Shown piece after piece: positions 4,720-15,572 of a DNA stretch of 64,000 nt. This DNA comes from Streptococcus oralis (GTDB lineage Bacteria; Bacillota; Bacilli; Lactobacillales; Streptococcaceae): the NCBI RefSeq assembly GCF_001983955.1, contig NZ_CP019562.1, positions 1,178,001-1,242,000 of the forward strand. Reading direction: 5' to 3'. Position 1 is the first letter of the stretch. Each line of letters starts with the position of its first letter. The notes below the pieces were generated by a model that ran no database searches, had not been told where the DNA came from, and worked only from the letters and a program-made list of their open reading frames with translations. Made by a program: the position numbers and the translations under genes.

Positions 4720-5340
4720 TTACATCCTCTTAGCTATATTGAACTCATCTAATCGTTCTCTTTTGTCTTTTGCATTCTGAATATATCGACTATAATCTTC
4801 TTTGAAATCGTTCAAACTCACTAAAGAAATATAAGAATCGTGTTCATTATCATAAAGATCATTACATGGATTTTTCTTATAAGCCGACTTAATATTTAAC
4901 ATGTTCTCTCTAGCTAAATTATCAAAATATTTCAAAGACCTACACGACTTAGTTTGCTGACAATGTTGACAATAATGAGTACTATCGTCTAGTACCTTAT
5001 CTTTAGCTTCATCAGTATAGATAGCTATCACACCATTTGTTCTATTATTTTCCCTATTCTCTAAAGAATATCTAAGTTCATCATAAAGCCAATCATCGTA
5101 GTTCCCTCGCAAATCTTTTTTGTAAGAAATTGCTTCTGGTGTCAATAATACAATTGTAACAGAGGTATCTTTCAATTTATCGTATAAATAATCCTGAATT
5201 GTTTCTTCGCTCATTTGACTTCTATCTTTATCTTCAGATCTATTTATTACCTCGGTAGAACCATCAAATAAATCAACTAATTCATCTTTAATCTTTTTTC
5301 CATCACTAAAACGGAACGAAATAAATACTTTGGTCGCCAT
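4720..5340 (-). CDS. thsB: Thoeris-like TIR-domain protein (ThsB-type)
   Basis: 206 aa beginning KVFISFRFSDGKKIKDEL, the start of a MTH538/DUF1863-type TIR-like fold, with a hydrophobic strand TIVLLTPEAIS and a conserved DDWLYDELRYSL segment containing the probable catalytic Glu. In Thoeris systems this protein detects phage infection and makes a cyclic ADP-ribose-type signal. It is the last gene of the unit, with its start overlapping the ThsA stop by 1 nt. The four Cys/His residues around CQHCQQTKSC (about 120-130) could bind zinc, a feature I do not associate with ThsB. Confidence 0.85.
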   Translation of the reverse strand: MATKVFISFRFSDGKKIKDELVDLFDGSTEVINRSEDKDRSQMSEETIQDYLYDKLKDTSVTIVLLTPEAISYKKDLRGNYDDWLYDELRYSLENRENNRTNGVIAIYTDEAKDKVLDDSTHYCQHCQQTKSCRSLKYFDNLARENMLNIKSAYKKNPCNDLYDNEHDSYISLVSLNDFKEDYSRYIQNAKDKRERLDEFNIAKRM

Positions 5341-6752
5341 TATCGTACCTCATTGATAATTTTATCAATCGTGGAAAATACTTTAGCGAAATCCTTTTCA
5401 GTCTCCAAAGTTTCCCAGTAATTATCTAAATAACTATATTCTCCTGATTGTTTCATCTCATCAAAAATTTCTTTTGCAGCAAATCCAGTAGAAGCAATCG
5501 GAATGATTATCTTTTCTTTTGCTTTAGCTATTTGAAATTCCTCCATCATGCCTGAAGCAATTTTGACTTTACCATCGACAAGTTTATTACCAAATAAAAA
5601 AATACACACACCTGACTCACTAATCATTTGTTCACGATTCTCTGTCCAACGCTCTTTTAACGATTTCTTTCCATTGTCATTTTGTGGAAAAGGAAACAAA
5701 CCAAGGTGTTCAGCCACATGTCTATATTTAGTTTTATAAATTTGATCCAGCGCACCGTTAATAACACTGCTTCCTATCCCCAGTCCAAACCCTGATATTA
5801 TTTTATAATCTTTTGAAATAAGAAAACTAGATAAATCATAGCAGTATTGATTTACCTTTTCTTCACTCCAATTCTCATTATAATCTGATATACTACCTGA
5901 AATGAAGATTGTATTTTTTAAGTACTCCTCCTCAATTTTTTGTATTAAGTCAGATATTTCAGAATAATCATCTACTAGAACGGTCTCTATTCCATATCTC
6001 TGTAAATCTTTGATTTTTAAATCTTGTTTTATTTTAGCGTAATTATATCCTTCGATATCTGCGTCATAGTCTCTCTCTAACACTTGTTTTTGAATACAAT
6101 AATGTTCTCTCTTATTATCTCCCAGCAAGACATTTACCTTCCCCAGAATAGATTCTAAATTAGGATCTTCAAAACCAAAACCTACAAATAAAAATGTTTT
6201 AGAAACTAAGTCACCTCGTAAAGCTGTTACAAATAAAGAGTTTTTATCACTATATCTTTCATAATCATCTTTTGAAATAACTGCATCATTAGGCGAATCT
6301 ACATCACCATGCATCTTATAAACAATGGCATCGCTATCACGAATACTAATTGCTAAATCATCTATCTTTCTCTTTATATCTCCTCTACGATTGTTTTTCT
6401 TTAAACCGTTTTCAATTACGTTATCATAGTTTGTCGTCCAATATGTAGAAATGGGTAGTCGTGTTAGTAAATTCGTTACTTTTGTTTCTGCTTCTTGACT
6501 AGAAAATTGATAAACTATTTCCTGATTTACAGAACCTCGATTTCCCATTTTAGAATTGATATAATATTGAGTCAATCCCACTAAATCTGACTCTTTATCA
6601 ATATCTAAATCAATCTCATCCGCAAATGGCTTTACGAGCTTTTTCCAGTTAACAAATCCTGCGTCAACTGATGTTCCTGCGCCAGCAAAAACTGCCGCAT
6701 TGCTATCTTGAACAGCTTTCGTAAATTTTTTAATAAATTGCTCTTTCCTCAT
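5340..6752 (-). CDS. thsA: Thoeris effector ThsA (SIR2-SLOG NADase)
   Basis: 470 aa. The N-terminal SIR2 domain (about 1-285) shows GAGTSVDAG, TTNYDNVIE and the catalytic-His segment YKMHGD. The C-terminal SLOG domain (about 290-465) shows FISGSI, ISGFGLGIGSSVINGA and a late FLFGN strand. In Thoeris the SLOG pocket binds the TIR-made nucleotide and switches on NAD hydrolysis, stopping phage growth by killing or arresting the cell. The length matches known ThsA. It is flanked on both sides by TIR genes in one transcription unit. Confidence 0.92.
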   Translation of the reverse strand: MRKEQFIKKFTKAVQDSNAAVFAGAGTSVDAGFVNWKKLVKPFADEIDLDIDKESDLVGLTQYYINSKMGNRGSVNQEIVYQFSSQEAETKVTNLLTRLPISTYWTTNYDNVIENGLKKNNRRGDIKRKIDDLAISIRDSDAIVYKMHGDVDSPNDAVISKDDYERYSDKNSLFVTALRGDLVSKTFLFVGFGFEDPNLESILGKVNVLLGDNKREHYCIQKQVLERDYDADIEGYNYAKIKQDLKIKDLQRYGIETVLVDDYSEISDLIQKIEEEYLKNTIFISGSISDYNENWSEEKVNQYCYDLSSFLISKDYKIISGFGLGIGSSVINGALDQIYKTKYRHVAEHLGLFPFPQNDNGKKSLKERWTENREQMISESGVCIFLFGNKLVDGKVKIASGMMEEFQIAKAKEKIIIPIASTGFAAKEIFDEMKQSGEYSYLDNYWETLETEKDFAKVFSTIDKIINEVR

Positions 6753-6766
6753 CTTGAATCCTTCTA

Positions 6767-7933
6767 TTATTTTTTATTCTCTTTCCATTTAGTAAATGGA
6801 ATATCTGACTGTCCATGATTTTTAACTATAAAATCTTCAGAAAAAAGTAATTTTGGATATTTAAAGTAGAACTTTGGAATAATTGTTCTATCTATTTTTT
6901 CTGAAAAATAGATACATATTTTCTTTCCAATTGCATCTGCATATCCCAATTCCCAAGCACACCACTGAGAATTAAGTGTCTTACTTGAAAAGTACAAAAC
7001 AAATACATCCGATTGTTTTATACGCTCTTTGATAATATCGACTGTTGAAGTATTACACCATTCTCGTTTCAGATCGTATTTATCATTAACCCAGTCAATA
7101 TATACGACTTGGCCATTTTTGTTTAGTTTTTTATAAAAGGTTATAATTTTTTCTTCATCTTTAGAGTTATGTGAAAGAAAGATATCAAATTTTTTTATCT
7201 TTTCTAGATCATCAATGTATAACCTCTTCTTCAACTCTTCTGGTCCTTTCCTATTTGTTACTATTTCATTATCAATAAAATTTGTTTTTCCTTTCTTTTT
7301 TCTACTCAATCTAAACGGTAGAGATAATCTTTGAAAGTACGACTGAACTTCTTTTTTTAGCGATTGATTTCTTACATGACCATTTATTGCATAGAAAAAA
7401 TTATGAACTTCCTTTGAATCATACTTCGAAAGTTCTCTAATGATTTCTAATCTTTCATGTAAATCATGTGTTTTAAAAAATCTTTTGCGATAATGTTCCA
7501 GATAAGAGGGATTTATTTCTTGAATATAATCTAATGATTTTTTTCTTTTTATAGTTTGTAGCTTTAATTTTGCTAAAGATTTTTTTCGAATTTCATCTGC
7601 CTGAGTTTTTCTCTCTTCAATACACAAAATATTTTTTCTTACTCGTCTTCTTATATATTTAGATGTTTCAAGAATAAAATCATTAGTTTCTAAAGACATC
7701 CTTTTACTCTGAATTTTAACTAAATTCTTTTTAATAATACGTTTACCATACCAATAATTTCTTTCCTTTTCCAGCTTAGAAATTTTGTCAGGAAACATAT
7801 AAGTAAATTTATCAACATAGTCCTTGTTAGAAAATTTCTCTGGCATAGTCTCTATGACCATATTATGAGCTGGTTTAAACTCTTTTTGTAGTTTTATGTA
7901 AAACTCATTGTATTGTCTCATAACAATCCCCAT
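6767..7933 (-). CDS. Second TIR protein of the Thoeris-like locus, long N-terminus
   Basis: 388 aa. The first 240 residues are strongly basic and helical with no domain I recognise. The C-terminal 140 residues form a classical TIR domain: FDIFLSHNSKDE, VYIDW, ADVF-like SDVFVLYFSS and WCAWELG, whose Glu is the expected catalytic residue. Thoeris loci often carry several TIR proteins that feed one ThsA, giving different phage triggers. It ends 14 bp before thsA. An alternative start is Met5. Confidence 0.8.
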   Translation of the reverse strand: MGIVMRQYNEFYIKLQKEFKPAHNMVIETMPEKFSNKDYVDKFTYMFPDKISKLEKERNYWYGKRIIKKNLVKIQSKRMSLETNDFILETSKYIRRRVRKNILCIEERKTQADEIRKKSLAKLKLQTIKRKKSLDYIQEINPSYLEHYRKRFFKTHDLHERLEIIRELSKYDSKEVHNFFYAINGHVRNQSLKKEVQSYFQRLSLPFRLSRKKKGKTNFIDNEIVTNRKGPEELKKRLYIDDLEKIKKFDIFLSHNSKDEEKIITFYKKLNKNGQVVYIDWVNDKYDLKREWCNTSTVDIIKERIKQSDVFVLYFSSKTLNSQWCAWELGYADAIGKKICIYFSEKIDRTIIPKFYFKYPKLLFSEDFIVKNHGQSDIPFTKWKENKK

Positions 7934-8569: not shown

Positions 8570-9046
8570 TAAACTACCATTCACATTTCTGATGTTTTTA
8601 GTATGTACTCAATACCATCCAAGTAGCACCTGTAACGCTCAAGCTCTTCAAAAGTAGTCACTAGATAAATGTTGGTATTCACCATATCAGATAAGGCGCC
8701 ACTCATTACAATCCAGTGATTGCTCTCATCATTAAAGACGAGGTTCTGGCTATCTTGATAACAATAGTGATGAGTTAGGAGATTTGTTCAACGTTTCTTA
8801 ACAATCTCCATTTTTAAAGTCAGTTTATTATCTTCCCACTAGATTTAATATTTTTTCTTTCCCAACAATATTCACATACGATACATTGAATTTTTGGCAG
8901 ATTGTGTCTATTAATTCTTTTGAAATTATACTTGTTCCCTTTTCATAACGGCTAAGGCTATTGGGTGAAATGCTTATAATTCGTGCAAATTCTGGACATG
9001 TCAGGCCATGTGCCTTTCGTATAAATTTTATATTGTTTCCAATCAT
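8566..9046 (-). pseudogene. Decayed pezA antitoxin copy
   Basis: The first 70 codons (8828-9046) encode an HTH with LTCPEFARIISISPNSLSRYE, about 75 percent alike by eye to the intact PezA at 15027-15503. The frame then breaks near 8828. The remaining DNA to 8566 still resembles the C-terminal part of pezA at nucleotide level (the NPWILMSDDL and ERYSGYLDGIE regions are recognisable in other frames). This is a second, dead epsilon/zeta-type module, truncated next to the Thoeris cargo. Confidence 0.8.
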
Positions 9047-9362
9047 GGCATGCTTCTTTTACTCGATAATACTATTATAACATTTAGAAATTAAAAAACA
9101 GATTCTAAATCAATAGAACGTATAATTCTAAAATTAGAATTTTTAGTGATAATTCTATAAAATGTTGCTTTTCTAATAAATTTGTACTTGTTTTCTTCAA
9201 ACTATACAAATACCACGTTGTTGTAAGTTTGTAATTAACTCAAAAGTATTAGATATAATTTTAAAACAGTATTTTAAGCCATAGTTGGCCAATACTATAG
9301 TTTGCTATTTAATTCTAACTAAAAAAATCATTATACGAATCAAACAACTAAAAATGAATTTA
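9047..9362. other. AT-rich intergenic region with palindromes
   Basis: No gene seen. It contains the perfect dyad AATTCTAA-AA-TTAGAATT at 9124-9141 and further ATTCTA-type half sites (around 9103 and 9150), upstream of the decayed pezA and likely an old operator for its HTH protein. The right half leads to the promoter of the invertible module. Confidence 0.5.
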
Positions 9363-9371
9363 TGGTATACT
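9363..9371 (+). promoter_or_regulatory. Extended -10 promoter facing the invertible segment
   Basis: TGGTATACT fits the extended -10 pattern (TG-N-TATAAT). It lies outside the left inverted repeat except for its last base, so it would stay in place when the segment flips and would drive whichever gene is then next to it. No clear -35 is visible. Confidence 0.55.
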
Positions 9372-9401
9372 AGTGATAATAAATTGTTATCGGTAGGAGA
9401 A
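9371..9401 (+). repeat. Left 31-bp inverted repeat, putative recombination site
   Basis: Perfectly identical, in inverted orientation, to 12916-12946. Inside it is the dyad GATAA-TAAATTG-TTATC (9375-9391): two 5-bp arms around a 7-bp asymmetric spacer, the geometry of a tyrosine recombinase crossover site. Its inner end supplies the AGGAGA ribosome site of the adjacent gene. Confidence 0.85.
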
Positions 9402-9406
9402 TGTTT

Positions 9407-11686
9407 ATGTACTATGGACGCAACAATGAAATAGAACAGCTAAAACACCATTTTAAGTATTCTAGCAATGATAAAAATAGTTTATTCATTATAAATGGTT
9501 TTAGTGGCAGTGGCAAGACTGAATTAGTTAAAGAAGTTAGTCAACAAATATATAGAAATAATAAAGAAATTTTTATTTTATATGTTGATGTTGCAAATGA
9601 TGGATTTGAAAGTAATAAATTTTTTGAAAATTTATTAAAAGGAGCTTATATAGCCACTCAATTCAGGAGAAATCTTTGTTTATCTATACCACATAAATAT
9701 TCGTTCTCAAATTATTTAAGAAAACAAAAACTAACTAATTTAACATTGAAGCATAGTTTTAAACTTATCAAATCATTAATTTCATTAAACGTTCCGTATA
9801 AGAAAATTATTGACTATCCTTGGGAGGAAGTTATTTCTGAAATAAAAGAAGAAATTTTCGAAAGTGATCTATATTTACGTTACTTCTATAATATTTCAAA
9901 AAAAGTCAGAGTTAACATAATTATTGATAATTATCAATTTTTACCTGATAATATAAAAATAAAATTTGAAGATGACTTCAACACACTTCAAAAAGGAATT
10001 TCTTTAACCATAATACATCGAACTGATGAAGATGTCAGTTTAGTTGATAGATTAGATACACTAGATAATTATACTTCTAATGTATTAAATTTATCTTATC
10101 TGACAGAAGAAGAGTGTAAATTATTAATAAATAATCAGATTGATTTTCTAGATAATACCATGTTAAATCAAATTTGGCAGTTAACTAAAGGAAATTATAA
10201 AGAAATTGAATTAATTATTAATAAACTGGCAGACAACCCTAATTCAGAACTACTTAGTATTTCTGATATTTATAATAAACTTTCAGACACCCAAAAAAAT
10301 ATTTTGATTATATCATCAATTTTTCCAGCTGGTATGAGTAAAGAAATAGTTTTTAACTACATAAAATCTATTATAGAGGACACTACTGAAGTATCTAATT
10401 CGTTAAATGCTCTTATTAATGCAGGCTTTGTATACATTAATGGAGATACAAATGATAAGATAAAAATATCACATGAATCAATTGTTAATAGTATATTAAA
10501 TCAAACTACTGATTCTGATCTTAAATTAGTCACAAAGAATCTTAAAATATATTTGGAACAGACTATCTTATCCATAGGAATAGGTGGTGAATTAGCTTAC
10601 TTAATTCACTGCTTAATACATATCAGTAGTCTTGAAGAGTTAAGACAAAATATAGAATACATTAAAAAATTACTCGAAATAGAGTATAGAAAAAATTCTT
10701 ATTTTTATATCGTATCTTTGAGTAAAAAGATATTTAATTTAATAGAATTATTACCAGAGAAATATATACATTATATTTTGAATTCACATCAATGGACTTC
10801 AAATTTTAATGATGGTTTAACAATTCTTAGAAATCTTAAAATTGAGTATTATTCGGAACATATAAATTTATATTATCCTAGATTTTTAATTCAACTATAT
10901 GAATTTAATGAAGCGTTAAATTTACTTGAAAAATTAGAAAACAACTCAGGAAATTTACTCTATAAATTAAACGCTTATGGACATCTAGGTAAAGATAAAG
11001 AAGCAATAAAACTTCTTAATGAAAATCTTAATTCAGTAGAAAAAGATGATTTTTATTATATTATTTTACGAAATTCTGCCCATTATTTTCCAATTGAACA
11101 AGCTACTAGAAATCTCAAATTAGCATTAGAGTATTTTCAAGTGAATGAGCAGTATATTCCTGTTGCAACTGTATATAATAATTTAGGAGTCATTTATACA
11201 TGGAATAGAGAATATGATTTAGCTTTAGAAAATCTCAACAAAGCAGAAAAAATACTAAAAAAATATGATTCAAATGAAATTTTTGAATCATATTGTAATA
11301 AATCAGTTTTATTTCTAATGAAGAAAGATTATCAACAATCTCTAGAATATATCAATAAATCACTTCAAATGTGTCCTAAATCTTTAACTTTAGATGTTCG
11401 TATGCTTAAACTAAATAAATTAGTTGTTGAATTGGTGTCTGAAAATATTTCTCTTATAGATTTTCAGAATTCTTTAAGATACTTTGAGGCAGAAATTCCA
11501 CTAATAGATGATCCTTGGTATAAATTTCAAGTTGTATATAATCTAAAACAGATTAGTGATATTCCTTCTGTTTATGATCAATCATATATTGAAAATTATA
11601 AGGATGGATTAACTAAATACTATATACTAATTTCATATAAAAATTATAATTTTTGTCTTGGTCTATCTCCTAATTGGAGATATTAA
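9407..11686 (+). CDS. STAND-like AAA ATPase with TPR repeats
   Basis: 759 aa from the ATG at 9407, which sits 6 nt after AGGAGA; an ATG at 9401 is too close. The N-terminal NTPase begins YYGRNNEIEQL and carries Walker A GFSGSGKTE and a Walker B-like strand VNIIIDNYQ, then a winged-helix-like region. The C-terminal half is helical with TPR-like units (for example YNNLGVIYTWNREYDLALEN). This is the layout of STAND sensors used in signalling and phage defence; the ligand is unknown. The gene is much more AT-rich than the ICE backbone. Its end overlaps the convergent SHMT-like gene by 17 bp. Confidence 0.75.
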   Translation: MYYGRNNEIEQLKHHFKYSSNDKNSLFIINGFSGSGKTELVKEVSQQIYRNNKEIFILYVDVANDGFESNKFFENLLKGAYIATQFRRNLCLSIPHKYSFSNYLRKQKLTNLTLKHSFKLIKSLISLNVPYKKIIDYPWEEVISEIKEEIFESDLYLRYFYNISKKVRVNIIIDNYQFLPDNIKIKFEDDFNTLQKGISLTIIHRTDEDVSLVDRLDTLDNYTSNVLNLSYLTEEECKLLINNQIDFLDNTMLNQIWQLTKGNYKEIELIINKLADNPNSELLSISDIYNKLSDTQKNILIISSIFPAGMSKEIVFNYIKSIIEDTTEVSNSLNALINAGFVYINGDTNDKIKISHESIVNSILNQTTDSDLKLVTKNLKIYLEQTILSIGIGGELAYLIHCLIHISSLEELRQNIEYIKKLLEIEYRKNSYFYIVSLSKKIFNLIELLPEKYIHYILNSHQWTSNFNDGLTILRNLKIEYYSEHINLYYPRFLIQLYEFNEALNLLEKLENNSGNLLYKLNAYGHLGKDKEAIKLLNENLNSVEKDDFYYIILRNSAHYFPIEQATRNLKLALEYFQVNEQYIPVATVYNNLGVIYTWNREYDLALENLNKAEKILKKYDSNEIFESYCNKSVLFLMKKDYQQSLEYINKSLQMCPKSLTLDVRMLKLNKLVVELVSENISLIDFQNSLRYFEAEIPLIDDPWYKFQVVYNLKQISDIPSVYDQSYIENYKDGLTKYYILISYKNYNFCLGLSPNWRY

Positions 11687-12911
11687 TCTGTTTGTGATAT
11701 TTGCTAATGAGTTCAGAGTGTATAGAGTAGTTGAACTGTTTATATTTTAGTAAATTAGCTACTAGTTCAGCTAATTTCTGTATATCAGCCTCTGTGTATC
11801 CTAGATTTGTAATACCAACTGTTCCTAACCTAATTCCTGAAGTAGTCATCGGACCATATATATCATTCGGAATTTGATTACGATTAACCAATATTCTATG
11901 CTCGAAAAGTAACTCCTCTGCTTCCTTACCATTAAAGTTTAGATTTGATAAGTTGATTAAAACAACATGAGTTTTTGACTGTTTATAGATGACATCGATT
12001 CCATAGCTAGTTAAGCAATCTATTAACAGTTGAGTATTTTTAAGGACTTCTTTAGCATAACTTTGAATATCTATTGACAATAATTTAATTAAACATATAC
12101 ATTTAGCAAATAATGCAGATTGTGTCGGCCCACCTTGAGTTCTAGGAAAAATAGAATAACTTATTTCTCTTTCAAAAGAGCTACGATAAACTAGCACACC
12201 TCCTTGAGGTCCACGTAAACACTTATCCATTGTAAAAGTAGCAAAATCTACAAAAGGGAAAATTGCCTGATGAATATCTGCCATAATATACAAGACACTA
12301 TGGCAGATATCTGCCAATATGAGAGTGTCAGGACTAGTTTCTTTAACCGTCTTATAAATTTTTTTATAATTAAACTCATTTCCATACGATGAAGCACCGA
12401 CAACAATTAGTTTGGGTTTATATAGCTCTAATAATTCCCTTAGTTCAGTAAAATCTACTTTTAAATTATTATCTAAATGATAATATATAACCTTACCTCT
12501 ACCTGTGTAAGTGTGTGAAATATGCCCCCCGTCTTTTGGTGATAATGATAGAATAAAATCATCTCTTTCTAAAATTCCATTATAAACAATTTGATTAGCC
12601 TGAGTTCCAGAATTTGGTTGTAAACTAACTCGATAATCATTGGATCTTAAATTAAAGAGTTTGCAGCACAATTCCTCAGCATATACTTCAATATCATCTA
12701 ATGAAGTACAATGAGGAAAATAACGTTTTTCAACAACGCCTTCAGTTGGAAGTGTAGAAAGTGGAAAGCTTTGTATTTTTAATACTTCATTGAATGGATA
12801 GCTAATACAAGCAGCAAGATTTATGATACTATTTTGATCTTGATTATATGATTCAAGAATTTTATTCAATCTCTGATAAATTTTTCCTTCAAACTTATTA
12901 GTTATATACAC
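11670..12911 (-). CDS. SHMT-like PLP-dependent protein
   Basis: 413 aa, GTG start at 12911, ribosome site inside the right inverted repeat. It follows serine hydroxymethyltransferase layout: QPNSGTQAN, DGGHISHT, IVVGASSYG, ADICHSVLYIMAD and TMDKCLRGPQGG, with the PLP lysine in the last motif. Several SHMT positions differ: DMAHIAGL becomes DICHSVLY and THKTLRGPRGG becomes MDKCLRGPQGG. It is therefore likely a specialised PLP enzyme rather than housekeeping GlyA. It is convergent with the STAND gene and uses the same 31-bp upstream sequence. Confidence 0.78.
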   Translation of the reverse strand: MYITNKFEGKIYQRLNKILESYNQDQNSIINLAACISYPFNEVLKIQSFPLSTLPTEGVVEKRYFPHCTSLDDIEVYAEELCCKLFNLRSNDYRVSLQPNSGTQANQIVYNGILERDDFILSLSPKDGGHISHTYTGRGKVIYYHLDNNLKVDFTELRELLELYKPKLIVVGASSYGNEFNYKKIYKTVKETSPDTLILADICHSVLYIMADIHQAIFPFVDFATFTMDKCLRGPQGGVLVYRSSFEREISYSIFPRTQGGPTQSALFAKCICLIKLLSIDIQSYAKEVLKNTQLLIDCLTSYGIDVIYKQSKTHVVLINLSNLNFNGKEAEELLFEHRILVNRNQIPNDIYGPMTTSGIRLGTVGITNLGYTEADIQKLAELVANLLKYKQFNYSIHSELISKYHKQINISN

Positions 12912-12915
12912 TTAT

Positions 12916-12946
12916 TTCTCCTACCGATAACAATTTATTATCACTA
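12916..12946 (-). repeat. Right 31-bp inverted repeat, putative recombination site
   Basis: Exact inverted copy of 9371-9401, with the dyad GATAA-CAATTTA-TTATC at 12926-12942. The 7-bp spacers at the two sites are in opposite orientation, which predicts inversion, not excision, of the 3.5 kb between them. On the minus strand TATAGT spans its outer edge (12948-12943) as a weak -10. Confidence 0.85.
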
Positions 12947-13001
12947 TACAAAGCACCCAAATAGGTTTATAATAGCATGATTATTGATAAAGGAGATTTT
13001 T

Positions 13002-13898
13002 ATGGATTATAAACTTATTTCTACTTACTTAGATTATTGCAAAACTCATAAGCGTTTGAGTTCACACACGATTCGCGCTTATAAGAATGATCTTATGCAA
13101 TTTTATAACTCAGACTATGATAATGTCGAATCCTATATAGAACAGTTGACACGATCTAACATAAAAACGAATACATTAAGAAGAAAAATTGCTTGTATGA
13201 AGGTATTTTATAACTATCTAAAATACCAGAACATAATTGAAGAGAATCCCTTCAATCAATTGCGCTTTCAATTTAGAACTGAAAAAGTATTGCCTAAAAC
13301 GATTCCGTATGACATGCTGAAAAGCATTTTTATATATTTAGAACAGAAAGTAATTGTATCTAAAACTGACTATCAAAAACAACACGCTGAAAGAAATCTA
13401 CTAATTATTTCACTTTTACTTTCAACAGGCATCAGAATTTCTGAACTTTGCCACATTCATCTCAAAGACATTAATCTGTCCAATAAGACACTCCATATTA
13501 TAGGAAAGGGTAAGAAAGAACGTATCCTATTTTTAGGAGATCAAAAAACATTCAATTTATTAGAAACATATATAAATAAAACAAGAAATGAATCCAATGA
13601 TTTCTTGTTCCCAGGGAAACATTCACTTAAACCATTGTCAGAGCAAAGTGTACGTTTAGTAATAAAGAGAATCGTTGAACAAAATAACTTTTCTAGAACT
13701 ATTACACCACATATGTTTAGACATAGCTTTGCGACAATGCTTCTAGATAGTGATGTAGATATTCGATATATTCAACAAATTCTTGGACACAGTTCTATAT
13801 CAATCACACAAATCTATACTCACGTATCTCATTCAAAACAAAAAGAAATACTTAGTTCTTTTAATCCTGTATCAGCGATTCATTCTGAAATCGAGTAA
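13002..13898 (+). CDS. Tyrosine recombinase (XerC/D-like)
   Basis: 298 aa from the ATG at 13002, which has AAGGAG upstream; an in-frame TTG at 12984 lies before the ribosome site. The N-terminal SAM-like core-binding domain is about residues 1-95. The catalytic domain carries Arg in STGIRISELCHI, Lys in GKGKKERI, HMFRHSFAT (H-x-x-R), LGHSSI and the nucleophile Tyr in ITQIYTH. All catalytic residues are present. A TATAAT lies at 12968-12973. It starts 56 bp outside the right inverted repeat, so it is the obvious candidate to invert the neighbouring segment. Confidence 0.93.
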   Translation: MDYKLISTYLDYCKTHKRLSSHTIRAYKNDLMQFYNSDYDNVESYIEQLTRSNIKTNTLRRKIACMKVFYNYLKYQNIIEENPFNQLRFQFRTEKVLPKTIPYDMLKSIFIYLEQKVIVSKTDYQKQHAERNLLIISLLLSTGIRISELCHIHLKDINLSNKTLHIIGKGKKERILFLGDQKTFNLLETYINKTRNESNDFLFPGKHSLKPLSEQSVRLVIKRIVEQNNFSRTITPHMFRHSFATMLLDSDVDIRYIQQILGHSSISITQIYTHVSHSKQKEILSSFNPVSAIHSEIE

Positions 13899-14154
13899 GA
13901 GACATTTCCAAAGTCTACAATTCACTTCATCTTAAATTAATTTTTGTAGTTCGACTTTAGTTAATAGATTTTATACTCAACAAAAGCAAAAACCATATAA
14001 AGCTTCACTTTGAATTAGCATTTATACTATATTCCGTATTAAGAACTCCATAATTGTTTTTCTAAAATACATCTTTCAAATATCCTTAAATATAATAAAA
14101 AGAGATAGGCAAAATCTCAATTCCTGAAGAAAATGGAGTAAATCTTCCCACAAG
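13899..14154. other. AT-rich gene-free spacer
   Basis: No open frame, repeat or recognisable RNA seen between the recombinase stop and the shared terminator; only AT-rich sequence. Confidence 0.6.
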
Positions 14155-14203
14155 AAAACGCATAGTTTCAAGTTCTTCAACACCTGAGACTATGCGTTTT
14201 TCT
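14155..14203. terminator. Bidirectional terminator between recombinase and pezT
   Basis: AAAACGCATAGTTTCA at 14155-14170 pairs with TGAGACTATGCGTTTT at 14185-14200 (one mismatch near the loop), with T-runs on both sides. It serves the convergent recombinase and pezAT transcripts. Confidence 0.85.
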
Positions 14204-14256: not shown

Positions 14257-15027
14257 CTAACAACCATTTCGATTAGTTAAATCTTTCAATCTTTCTTCTC
14301 CAAATTTAAGCATCTCTTTCTCAACTTGATTCCATTCTACAAATAGTAAATCATGAAGAACGGTTGCTGCTGATGTTGTATTTTCTTTTGAATCATATAC
14401 ACAACTTCTATCTCGTTGGTAAATTTGGATTTTTTCAAAGATAGCTAGTTCTTCCAATTGCCGTGTACTATCAACTAGATGATTTACAATGAAATCATGA
14501 TGTTCTTTTGGTGTTGCGCGAGCTTGATTTGGATTAATAGCGTACAGTTCTTCATATCGGATAAGGGTACTCAGATAGGATAGCTTAGGCTTTGTCGCAA
14601 TCAAGGCTAATTGTACTTCATATCCCTTATTTTTCAAGAGTTGTGCTGTTTTCTTTGGAACATCAATTGTTCGTAAAGTTCCCTCTATCAAAAGATTGTA
14701 TCCCAAATGACTCAATTCGGTTACTAAAGACTCTACCATTTTCCCTGCAAAATCTTTGGTGTATTCTACACTATCTTTGCCATATTCTTGCTGCAGTTCT
14801 AAATAGTGTGGATGCTGGGAACGAAAACTATCGCCATCTATGATAACAATATTTCCTTGAAATTCTTTCTGTTTAATACGATGAATTGTAGTCTTACCAG
14901 CACCACTTTGTCCCCCAAGCAAAATCGCTATAGGCTGCTTACTGGACTTTTTTCCTCTTGTCAGTGAACGAAGATTCCGTGCTAAAGCCTGTTTGAATTC
15001 ACTATCGGTATAATCTTGGATTTCCAT
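14257..15027 (-). CDS. pezT: Zeta-family toxin PezT
   Basis: 256 aa, the usual PezT length. Walker A is GGQSGAGKTT (about residues 38-47), followed by IIDGDSFRSQHPHY, the substrate-binding region of zeta toxins. Members phosphorylate UDP-N-acetylglucosamine and so block peptidoglycan synthesis. Its start overlaps the pezA stop (TAATG), giving coupled translation. It lies in the ICE and would help retain it by post-segregational killing. Confidence 0.95.
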   Translation of the reverse strand: MEIQDYTDSEFKQALARNLRSLTRGKKSSKQPIAILLGGQSGAGKTTIHRIKQKEFQGNIVIIDGDSFRSQHPHYLELQQEYGKDSVEYTKDFAGKMVESLVTELSHLGYNLLIEGTLRTIDVPKKTAQLLKNKGYEVQLALIATKPKLSYLSTLIRYEELYAINPNQARATPKEHHDFIVNHLVDSTRQLEELAIFEKIQIYQRDRSCVYDSKENTTSAATVLHDLLFVEWNQVEKEMLKFGEERLKDLTNRNGC

Positions 15028-15503
15028 TAGGCTACCATCCGTTTTTCAGATATCTCTAACATACGTTCAATTCCATCCAAATAACCGCTATATCTCTCTA
15101 TTTCATCAAAAGTATCCACTAAATAGATATTCGTATGAATCAAGTCAGATAGATCATCACTCATTAAAATCCAAGGATTAGATTCATCATCAATGCTAAT
15201 TCCCTGGCTATCTTGATAACGATAGAGTCGAGATAGTAGATTAGCACCTCTTTCTTTCACAATTTCAATTTTTAAAGTCAATTCATAATCTTCAACAGGA
15301 TTGAGCATTTTATCTTCTCCTACAATATCGACATAAGATACATTAAACTTCTGGCAGATGATGTCTATTAGTTCCGTAGAAACTGAACTAGTGCCATTTT
15401 CATAACGACTCAAGCTATTTCGAGAAATTCCTATAATTCGGGCAAATTCGAGTTGTGTTAAGTCATGTGTTTTACGTAGGGATTTTATGTTCTTTCCAAT
15501 CAT
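15027..15503 (-). CDS. pezA: PezA antitoxin and autorepressor
   Basis: 158 aa. The N-terminal HTH (LTQLEFARIIGISRNSLSRYENG, residues about 15-37) is the operator-binding domain; the C-terminal acidic helical part neutralises PezT. It is directly upstream of pezT and is intact, unlike the copy at 8566-9046. Confidence 0.95.
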   Translation of the reverse strand: MIGKNIKSLRKTHDLTQLEFARIIGISRNSLSRYENGTSSVSTELIDIICQKFNVSYVDIVGEDKMLNPVEDYELTLKIEIVKERGANLLSRLYRYQDSQGISIDDESNPWILMSDDLSDLIHTNIYLVDTFDEIERYSGYLDGIERMLEISEKRMVA

Positions 15504-15530
15504 GGCAAACTCCTTTTATTTGATAACACC

Positions 15531-15572
15531 ATTATAACATTTAGAAAAAAAGAAATGCACCATTTTTGGTGC
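15531..15572 (-). promoter_or_regulatory. pezAT promoter and palindromic operator
   Basis: Extended -10 TGTTATAAT on the minus strand (TATAAT at 15536-15531). The perfect dyad GCACCA-TTTT-TGGTGC at 15557-15572 lies at about the -35 position, suitable for PezA autorepression. Confidence 0.65.

Follow-up and report, generated by a model that had tools for sequence, protein, structure and literature searches.

Can a bacterium choose between two unrelated genes by turning over the DNA that carries them? A locus of Streptococcus oralis raises this question. Within the window analyzed here, a stretch of 64,000 nucleotides of contig NZ_CP019562.1 (positions 1,178,001 to 1,242,000; the genome is a single contig of 1.97 Mb), the gene for a STAND-type ATPase converges with that for a serine hydroxymethyltransferase (SHMT)-like, pyridoxal phosphate (PLP) enzyme. 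Both lie between inverted repeats, and a tyrosine recombinase gene adjoins the right one. An original prediction, made from the sequence alone, held that inversion of this segment swaps which gene is expressed. Our comparison with related loci makes it quite probable that the locus is a self-contained DNA-inversion switch, in which the gene on the promoter side is expressed, built on a platform that also swaps its cargo.

In the mechanism that we favor, the recombinase beside the right repeat would act on two inverted 17-bp cores and turn over the stretch that they enclose. One fixed extended −10 promoter, located outside the left core, would transcribe the adjoining gene by way of a ribosome site carried in the repeat, and the convergent right-hand partner would be off or weakly expressed. 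In the window, the ATPase would thus sit at the expressed position and the SHMT-like gene at the silent one. The same cores may also permit the replacement of one gene pair by another. Judged from the genomes compared, the locus shows a shared anatomy, both orientations, crossover at the cores, different cargo between like flanks, a promoter sequence conserved on one side and purifying selection on both genes.

Anatomy of the locus

The two convergent genes are enclosed by perfect inverted repeats separated by 3514 nt, each of which holds the core GATAA-TAAATTG-TTATC, in opposite orientations (Table 1). Each repeat also provides the ribosome site of the gene that it faces: GGTAGGAGA in the left repeat, and its counterpart at 12917-12925 in the right. 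The extended −10 promoter TGGTATACT, with its −10 at 9366-9371, adjoins the left repeat. Repeats, cores, ribosome sites and promoter were all part of the original prediction, and the repeats, cores and genes were found where it had placed them. The two cores are the sole matches to GATAA-N7-TTATC in the window, against a mean of 0.2 in 50 mononucleotide shuffles; this control of the core motif, with the perfect 31-bp match, rules out a chance origin of the repeats. No known RNA element was found at gathering scores in 9000-14200.

The recombinase gene is complete and begins 56 nt outside the right repeat, as predicted; its open reading frame (ORF) is listed from TTG 12984, and ATG 13002 is the likely start. 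The protein matches Phage_integrase (PF00589) at 2e-43. Residues R151, K175, H243, R246, H269 and Y278 are invariant in an alignment of nine sequences that includes the window protein, and we take them to be the catalytic set R-K-H-R-H-Y of tyrosine recombinases. The solved structure nearest by sequence is XerD (1a0p). The proposal of a XerC/D-like enzyme stands as far as a Xer-like tyrosine recombinase, but the NCBIfam cut-offs for XerC and XerD proper are missed (220 of 335 bits and 208 of 330 bits, respectively). An origin as a phage-borne integrase was considered and rejected: all 804 matching phage records fall below 60% identity, and 15 viral-contig loci reach at most 43%. The putative recombinase promoter has 10 of 12 consensus matches, in a region where promoter-like matches overall are at chance (36 vs 33.6 expected), and its −10 and −35 boxes are both conserved across related loci. 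Since its −35 touches the repeat, the recombinase could repress its own expression by binding there.

The ATPase ORF spans 9401-11686 on the forward strand. We take ATG 9407 as the likely start because the equivalent ORF of relatives has 759 aa and a TAGGAG site then lies 7 nt upstream. Three TPR (tetratricopeptide repeat) models of Pfam score above gathering in this protein, AAA_16 and nSTAND6 match below gathering, and PADLOC defence models give weak partial matches only (best, 19.7 bits). The 3′ ends of the two convergent genes overlap by 17 nt. The SHMT-like protein matches PF00464 (SHMT) at 7e-72 and misses the NCBIfam SHMT subfamily cut-off (279 vs 335 bits needed). K230, at the PLP-lysine position, is invariant in a 17-sequence alignment that includes the window protein and aligns with the PLP lysine of a solved SHMT structure. 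No PADLOC defence model matched this protein, and it had no relative in the genome-contig and viral-contig collections; a search with its relative P0030 across 299 genomes of the window's phylum gave one match, the window's own genome.

Table 1. Features of the switch and its surroundings (window positions)
Feature	Position	Strand	Remarks
Thoeris set (ThsA and two ThsB-type TIR proteins)	4720-7933	-	just upstream of the switch
Fixed extended −10 promoter, TTATGG TATACT	9360..9371	+	outside the invertible segment, reads inward; no clear −35
Left inverted repeat	9371..9401	+	31 bp, 100% complementary to 12916-12946
Left recombination core, GATAA-7-TTATC	9375..9391	+	left and right cores identical in each counted module; G047/G219 put the crossover here
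Ribosome site GGTAGGAGA	9392..9400	+	within left repeat; would serve whichever gene sits at left
STAND-type P-loop ATPase with TPR, 759 aa	9407..11686	+	faces the promoter in this genome; start picked by ribosome-site spacing
SHMT-like PLP enzyme, 413 aa	11670..12911	-	convergent with the ATPase
Right inverted repeat	12916..12946	-	includes ribosome site of the SHMT-like gene, 12917-12925
Right recombination core	12926..12942	-	from repeat comparison, module comparison and window motif search
Outward recombinase promoter (putative), TATACA-17-TATAAT	12945..12973	+	−35 touches the right repeat
Xer-like tyrosine recombinase	13002..13898	+	likely invertase
PezT/PezA toxin-antitoxin genes	14257-15503	-	follow the recombinase

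Both orientations among relatives

Of the 284 genomes of the genus, eight were found to have the ATPase, counting the window's own (up to three candidates were scored in each genome). The SHMT-like gene, the recombinase and paired cores accompany it in all eight, and both orientations occur: the ATPase adjoins the left flank in five genomes (G000, G063, G131, G219 and G200) and the SHMT-like gene in three (G178, G098 and G047). The inverted form that the original prediction called for thus exists, and none of the eight lacked the repeats or the recombinase. In G200, the ATPase is frame-shifted, and its recombinase region contains a run of N and a part that is repeated, which may reflect an assembly gap.

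Some of these inversions are recent. We compared the core-to-core segment and 1500 bp on each side in 21 chosen pairs and counted mismatches after reversal in three. In G047 and G219, both flanks are 100% identical and the segment between them is inverted, with two mismatches in 3534. The segment is likewise inverted in G178 and G063 (seven mismatches in 3534, flanks 99.7%) and, with another cargo than the ATPase/SHMT-like pair, in G077 and G144 (one mismatch in 3288; right flank 100%, left 95.9%). The bases just outside the cores of G047 and G219 (T on the left, C on the right) differ and do not travel with the segment; the exchange therefore lies at the core. Comparison of genomes in this way establishes inversion between relatives.

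To place the pair among its kin, we searched the same 284 genomes for the recombinase subfamily (E ≤ 1e-40, at most eight candidates scored per genome) and found it in 54. Among 62 loci with the recombinase, 53 have a pair of cores and are counted here as modules, from 49 genomes; one of them, L019, failed the automatic rule owing to its gap and was added by hand. Left out were four loci at contig starts that had no counted core pair (L128, L131, L132 and L134), three with a truncated recombinase (L126 and L129, without cores, and L117, with unequal cores) and L118, a remnant with half an SHMT-like gene. Also left out was L091 (in G169), whose recombinase is cut by the contig end and which has one core; to its left lie unrelated genes, some of them mobilisation-like by eye.

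Left and right cores are identical within all 53 modules, though five core versions exist among them. Modules were picked by at most two mismatches to one reference core, a rule under which the cores of one module could still have differed; adding L117 would make it 53 of 54. Same-family pairs of modules are divided almost evenly between same (51) and opposite (49) orientation, for the 100 of 146 possible pairs that passed length filters. Several draft contigs break off no more than ~40 nt from a core (G101, G122 twice, G172, L175 and L180), as expected if both orientations were present in the reads; short repeats alone can also break an assembly. For both P0003 and P0013, the longest contig is given as 3568 bases, the core-to-core length of the modules with the window's gene pair, and might be a contig broken at both repeats.

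Cargo families and their exchange

The 53 modules cluster into about ten cargo families (Table 2). Cargo genes are convergent, and their starts lie mostly 26-40 nt from the first core base. The prediction of a single STAND/SHMT toggle was correct in that both orientations of this pair exist, but it was too narrow: the pair is one cargo among many. The ATPases of families A and C are linked by profile comparison (E 5e-6, probability 86%), and in family H, TIR and caspase-like genes stand beside the 192-aa gene in five of eight modules. Outside the genus, a Granulicatella contig carries a module with the same cores and cargo C, its recombinase being 56% identical; an alignment search across 97 genomes of the taxonomic family gave only four weak recombinase matches beyond the genus (E 4e-47 to 2e-42).

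Table 2. Cargo families, with the number of modules that have the first-named and the second-named gene at left
Family	Cargo pair	First : second at left
A	STAND/SHMT-like	5:3
B	membrane-anchored STAND/SHMT-like	2:2
C	STAND/ATP-grasp	2:5
D	large protein/ATP-grasp	3:1
E	membrane protein/polyprenyl synthase	5:4
F	methyltransferase-like/acetyltransferase-like membrane protein	3:2
G	ThsA (SIR2-STALD)/TIR	5:0
G2 (diverged version of G)	ThsA/TIR	0:1
H	TPR-S protein/192-aa protein	6:2
I	glycosyltransferase/large nuclease-like STAND	2:0
Names come from Pfam and PADLOC scans of one representative per family. STAND (B, C, I), membrane (B, E, F), nuclease (I) and acetyltransferase (F) were read wholly or partly by eye from the sequence; the methyltransferase (F) and TPR-S (H) matches are below gathering scores.

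Different pairs occur between like flanks. The megaplasmids L210 and L212, of the S. salivarius type, share 281 bp on the left at 99.3% and >5 kb on the right at 99.1%, yet L210 carries cargo E and L212 cargo A, and homology ends ~10 nt inside the cores. Chromosomal modules with cargo C, G and B have recombinase sides that are 99.8-99.9% identical, and their left flanks are related (90-95%) up to the core. More broadly, of 1097 aligned pairs that differ in cargo, 96 have recombinase sides of at least 96% identity. The reverse also holds: the cargo of the family F modules in G271 and G160 is 96.7% identical vs 70.6% for the recombinase sides, and in 31 of 100 same-family pairs the cargo is >10 points, and up to 26 points, closer than the recombinase side. 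By these comparisons, cargo is replaced at the repeats. We infer that the local recombinase, rather than other recombination, carries out this exchange.

Which gene is expressed

The inverting agent is probably the local recombinase, given its position and co-conservation. The distance from the right core to the first aligned recombinase codon is 42 or 45 nt in 50 of 53 modules. On the other side, left flanks upstream of the core are poorly conserved between lineages, save for TATGnTATACT directly at the core. The promoter element predicted in the window recurs: TGnTATACTnnn abuts the left core in 51 of 53 modules, as does TGnTATACT. Only L089, whose contig stops there, and L130, in which both the recombinase and the promoter are altered, depart from this. 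Inward of the right core, TGnTAnnnT occurs in 0 of 53. The ribosome site GGTAGGAGA or a close variant is found across modules. Because the 3′ ends of the cargo genes overlap in several families, read-through from the left would be antisense to the silent partner. Of the predicted swap in expression, then, the inversion is borne out, and the extended −10 sequence conserved at the left lends the swap support; promoter selection by inversion is likely, and the partner gene is presumably silent or weakly expressed.

Both cargo genes appear to be kept functional and in use, since in eight cargo families the median ratio of nonsynonymous to synonymous substitution rates (dN/dS) is 0.07-0.32 for each of the two genes. 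Values for single pairs go up to 0.44; three to seven members were compared per family, and very close and saturated pairs were dropped.

Four observations weigh against a promoter switch. First, our collections hold one genome per species, so that inversion is seen between close relatives and not within one culture. Second, two families show no switching: ThsA is at left in all five family G modules, as is the glycosyltransferase in both family I modules. Third, a supposedly silent copy shows no clear decay. A cargo gene is broken in seven of 53 modules, and the trend is rather the reverse, with five breaks at left (L019, L085, L103, L119 and L127) vs two at right (L095 and L130); breakage was not judged in L084, which is masked near its gene starts. 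Decay of the supposedly silent gene is therefore unsupported. Fourth, the conserved TTTGTATAGT on the inner side of the right core might act as a weak promoter, yet it doubles as the −35 of the recombinase.

Some of the broken genes merit separate mention. In family E, the membrane protein gene is frameshifted at one A-tract in L085, L119 and L127, each time at the promoter side. This affects three of six left copies (L117, outside the 53, being among the six) and none of four right copies, which may hint that expressed copies are costly; the numbers are too small to conclude. In L103 (G127), of family G, the ThsA gene is frameshifted at an A-run right behind its start, and relatives are intact. 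L130 (G246) is a dead-looking module with a broken recombinase, an altered promoter, a frameshifted right gene and an intact left gene.

The strongest competing explanation, which we nevertheless consider unlikely, takes up the fourth of these observations: both genes would always be expressed, the right-hand one from a weaker promoter reading inward from the right flank, and inversion would only shift their ratio or be neutral. The strong conservation of TTTGTATAGT next to the right core speaks for it, as does the ThsA/TIR pair of family G, since a cell with only one of the two would seem undefended, given the one-operon Thoeris arrangement described in the accessible text of PMC12847820. However, the recombinase −35 also accounts for the conserved block, the extended −10 is confined to the left side, and the 3′ ends that overlap in several families would make read-through antisense to the partner.

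Less probable still, and by a clear step, is a recombinase that serves mainly as a cassette-exchange enzyme, an integrase-like collector of gene pairs whose inversions are a by-product without regulatory use. It would explain the different cargo between like flanks and the differing histories of cargo and recombinase, but would not account for sites in inverted instead of direct orientation, convergent cargo genes, a ribosome site within the repeat and a promoter on one side only. That the inverted copies stem from homologous recombination or transformation between strains, and not from site-specific inversion, is very improbable: modules clearly move between species and plasmids and streptococci are naturally transformable, but the flanks stay put, the breakpoints map to repeats of 18-31 bp, which are shorter than efficient homologous recombination requires, and the cores remain matched within modules.

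Possible links to defence

The representative ThsA of family G, a SIR2-STALD protein, scores 509.6 bits against a PADLOC model and is paired with a TIR protein. In known Thoeris, as far as the accessible description goes, a TIR product activates the effector and both genes lie in one operon (PMC12847820). In families G and G2, ThsA and TIR are instead convergent in all six modules.

The neighbourhood points the same way. A Thoeris set and PezAT genes flank the window's switch (Table 1), and a PezT gene occurs no more than 3 kb downstream in 11 of 53 modules, although for some modules the available flank was too short to tell. It is also present on five plasmid records of the S. salivarius type, of which two are identical in that stretch. 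To the left of the switch, 257 nt at 8842-9098 resemble 15299-15555, which takes in part of PezA with its start region, at 77% identity and may be a remnant. Together, cargo G and H and the Thoeris and PezAT neighbours suggest a defence role for the switch cargo.

A more far-reaching proposal can be made only tentatively, as a possibility that stands well short of probable. The parts of a two-part immune system, such as ThsA and TIR, may be kept deliberately mutually exclusive, so that the cell is normally harmless to itself, with full immunity only while both orientations or their products coexist, as after a flip or on sister chromosomes. The many interchangeable, mostly undescribed pairs (among them STAND/SHMT-like, STAND/ATP-grasp and polyprenyl synthase/membrane protein) would then be new defence systems.

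Whatever its purpose, this one streptococcal switch occurs with about ten unrelated pairs. Chromosomal and plasmid copies alike are seen with different cargo in like flanks, and in one family the two halves of an established immune system are set apart. New defence-like pairs can be sought through its core, promoter and recombinase, and the reason for alternating partner genes instead of co-expressing them becomes open to direct test.

Comparison with known systems

Gene-choosing inversion switches are classical and, to our knowledge, serve surface, tail-fibre and specificity genes. Our literature search, made by title and the start of abstracts, with few subscription journals and no bioRxiv preprints, found no description of the switch reported here. 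Its nearest parallels each share part of its design. The Hin system of Salmonella and the equivalent events in Mu and P1 are described, in the accessible text of PMC8987985, as inversions that link alternative genes to one promoter, which is the logic proposed here. Those systems use serine recombinases and flagellin or tail-fibre genes, whereas the present one has a tyrosine recombinase, immune-like pairs and exchangeable cargo.

Closer in its enzyme is the pneumococcal cod/ivr (spnIII) locus, where hsdS inversion at short repeats is attributed to PsrA/CreX, a streptococcal tyrosine recombinase (as outlined in PMC7096588 and PMC6620402). There too the recombinase adjoins its short inverted repeats, the likeness to PsrA being one of published description only. 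At cod/ivr, however, parts of hsdS genes are exchanged, whereas here whole unrelated genes alternate; no hsdS family match was found among the scanned cargo proteins. According to the outline of a genome-wide survey, inversion between hsdS genes is highly prevalent (PMC5903667), and another tyrosine recombinase is credited, in the accessible part of PMC6265443, with excision and reintegration at a phase-variable restriction locus of pneumococcus.

Two further comparisons concern immunity. Like type I Thoeris, family G combines ThsA with a TIR protein, but its genes converge within an invertible segment instead of forming the one operon outlined in PMC12847820. Inversion by PinQ is reported to block phage T2, in the summary given by PMC12529663, and so ties inversion to phage inhibition; there, however, the recombinase is of the serine type, and the outcome is a new protein that hinders adsorption.

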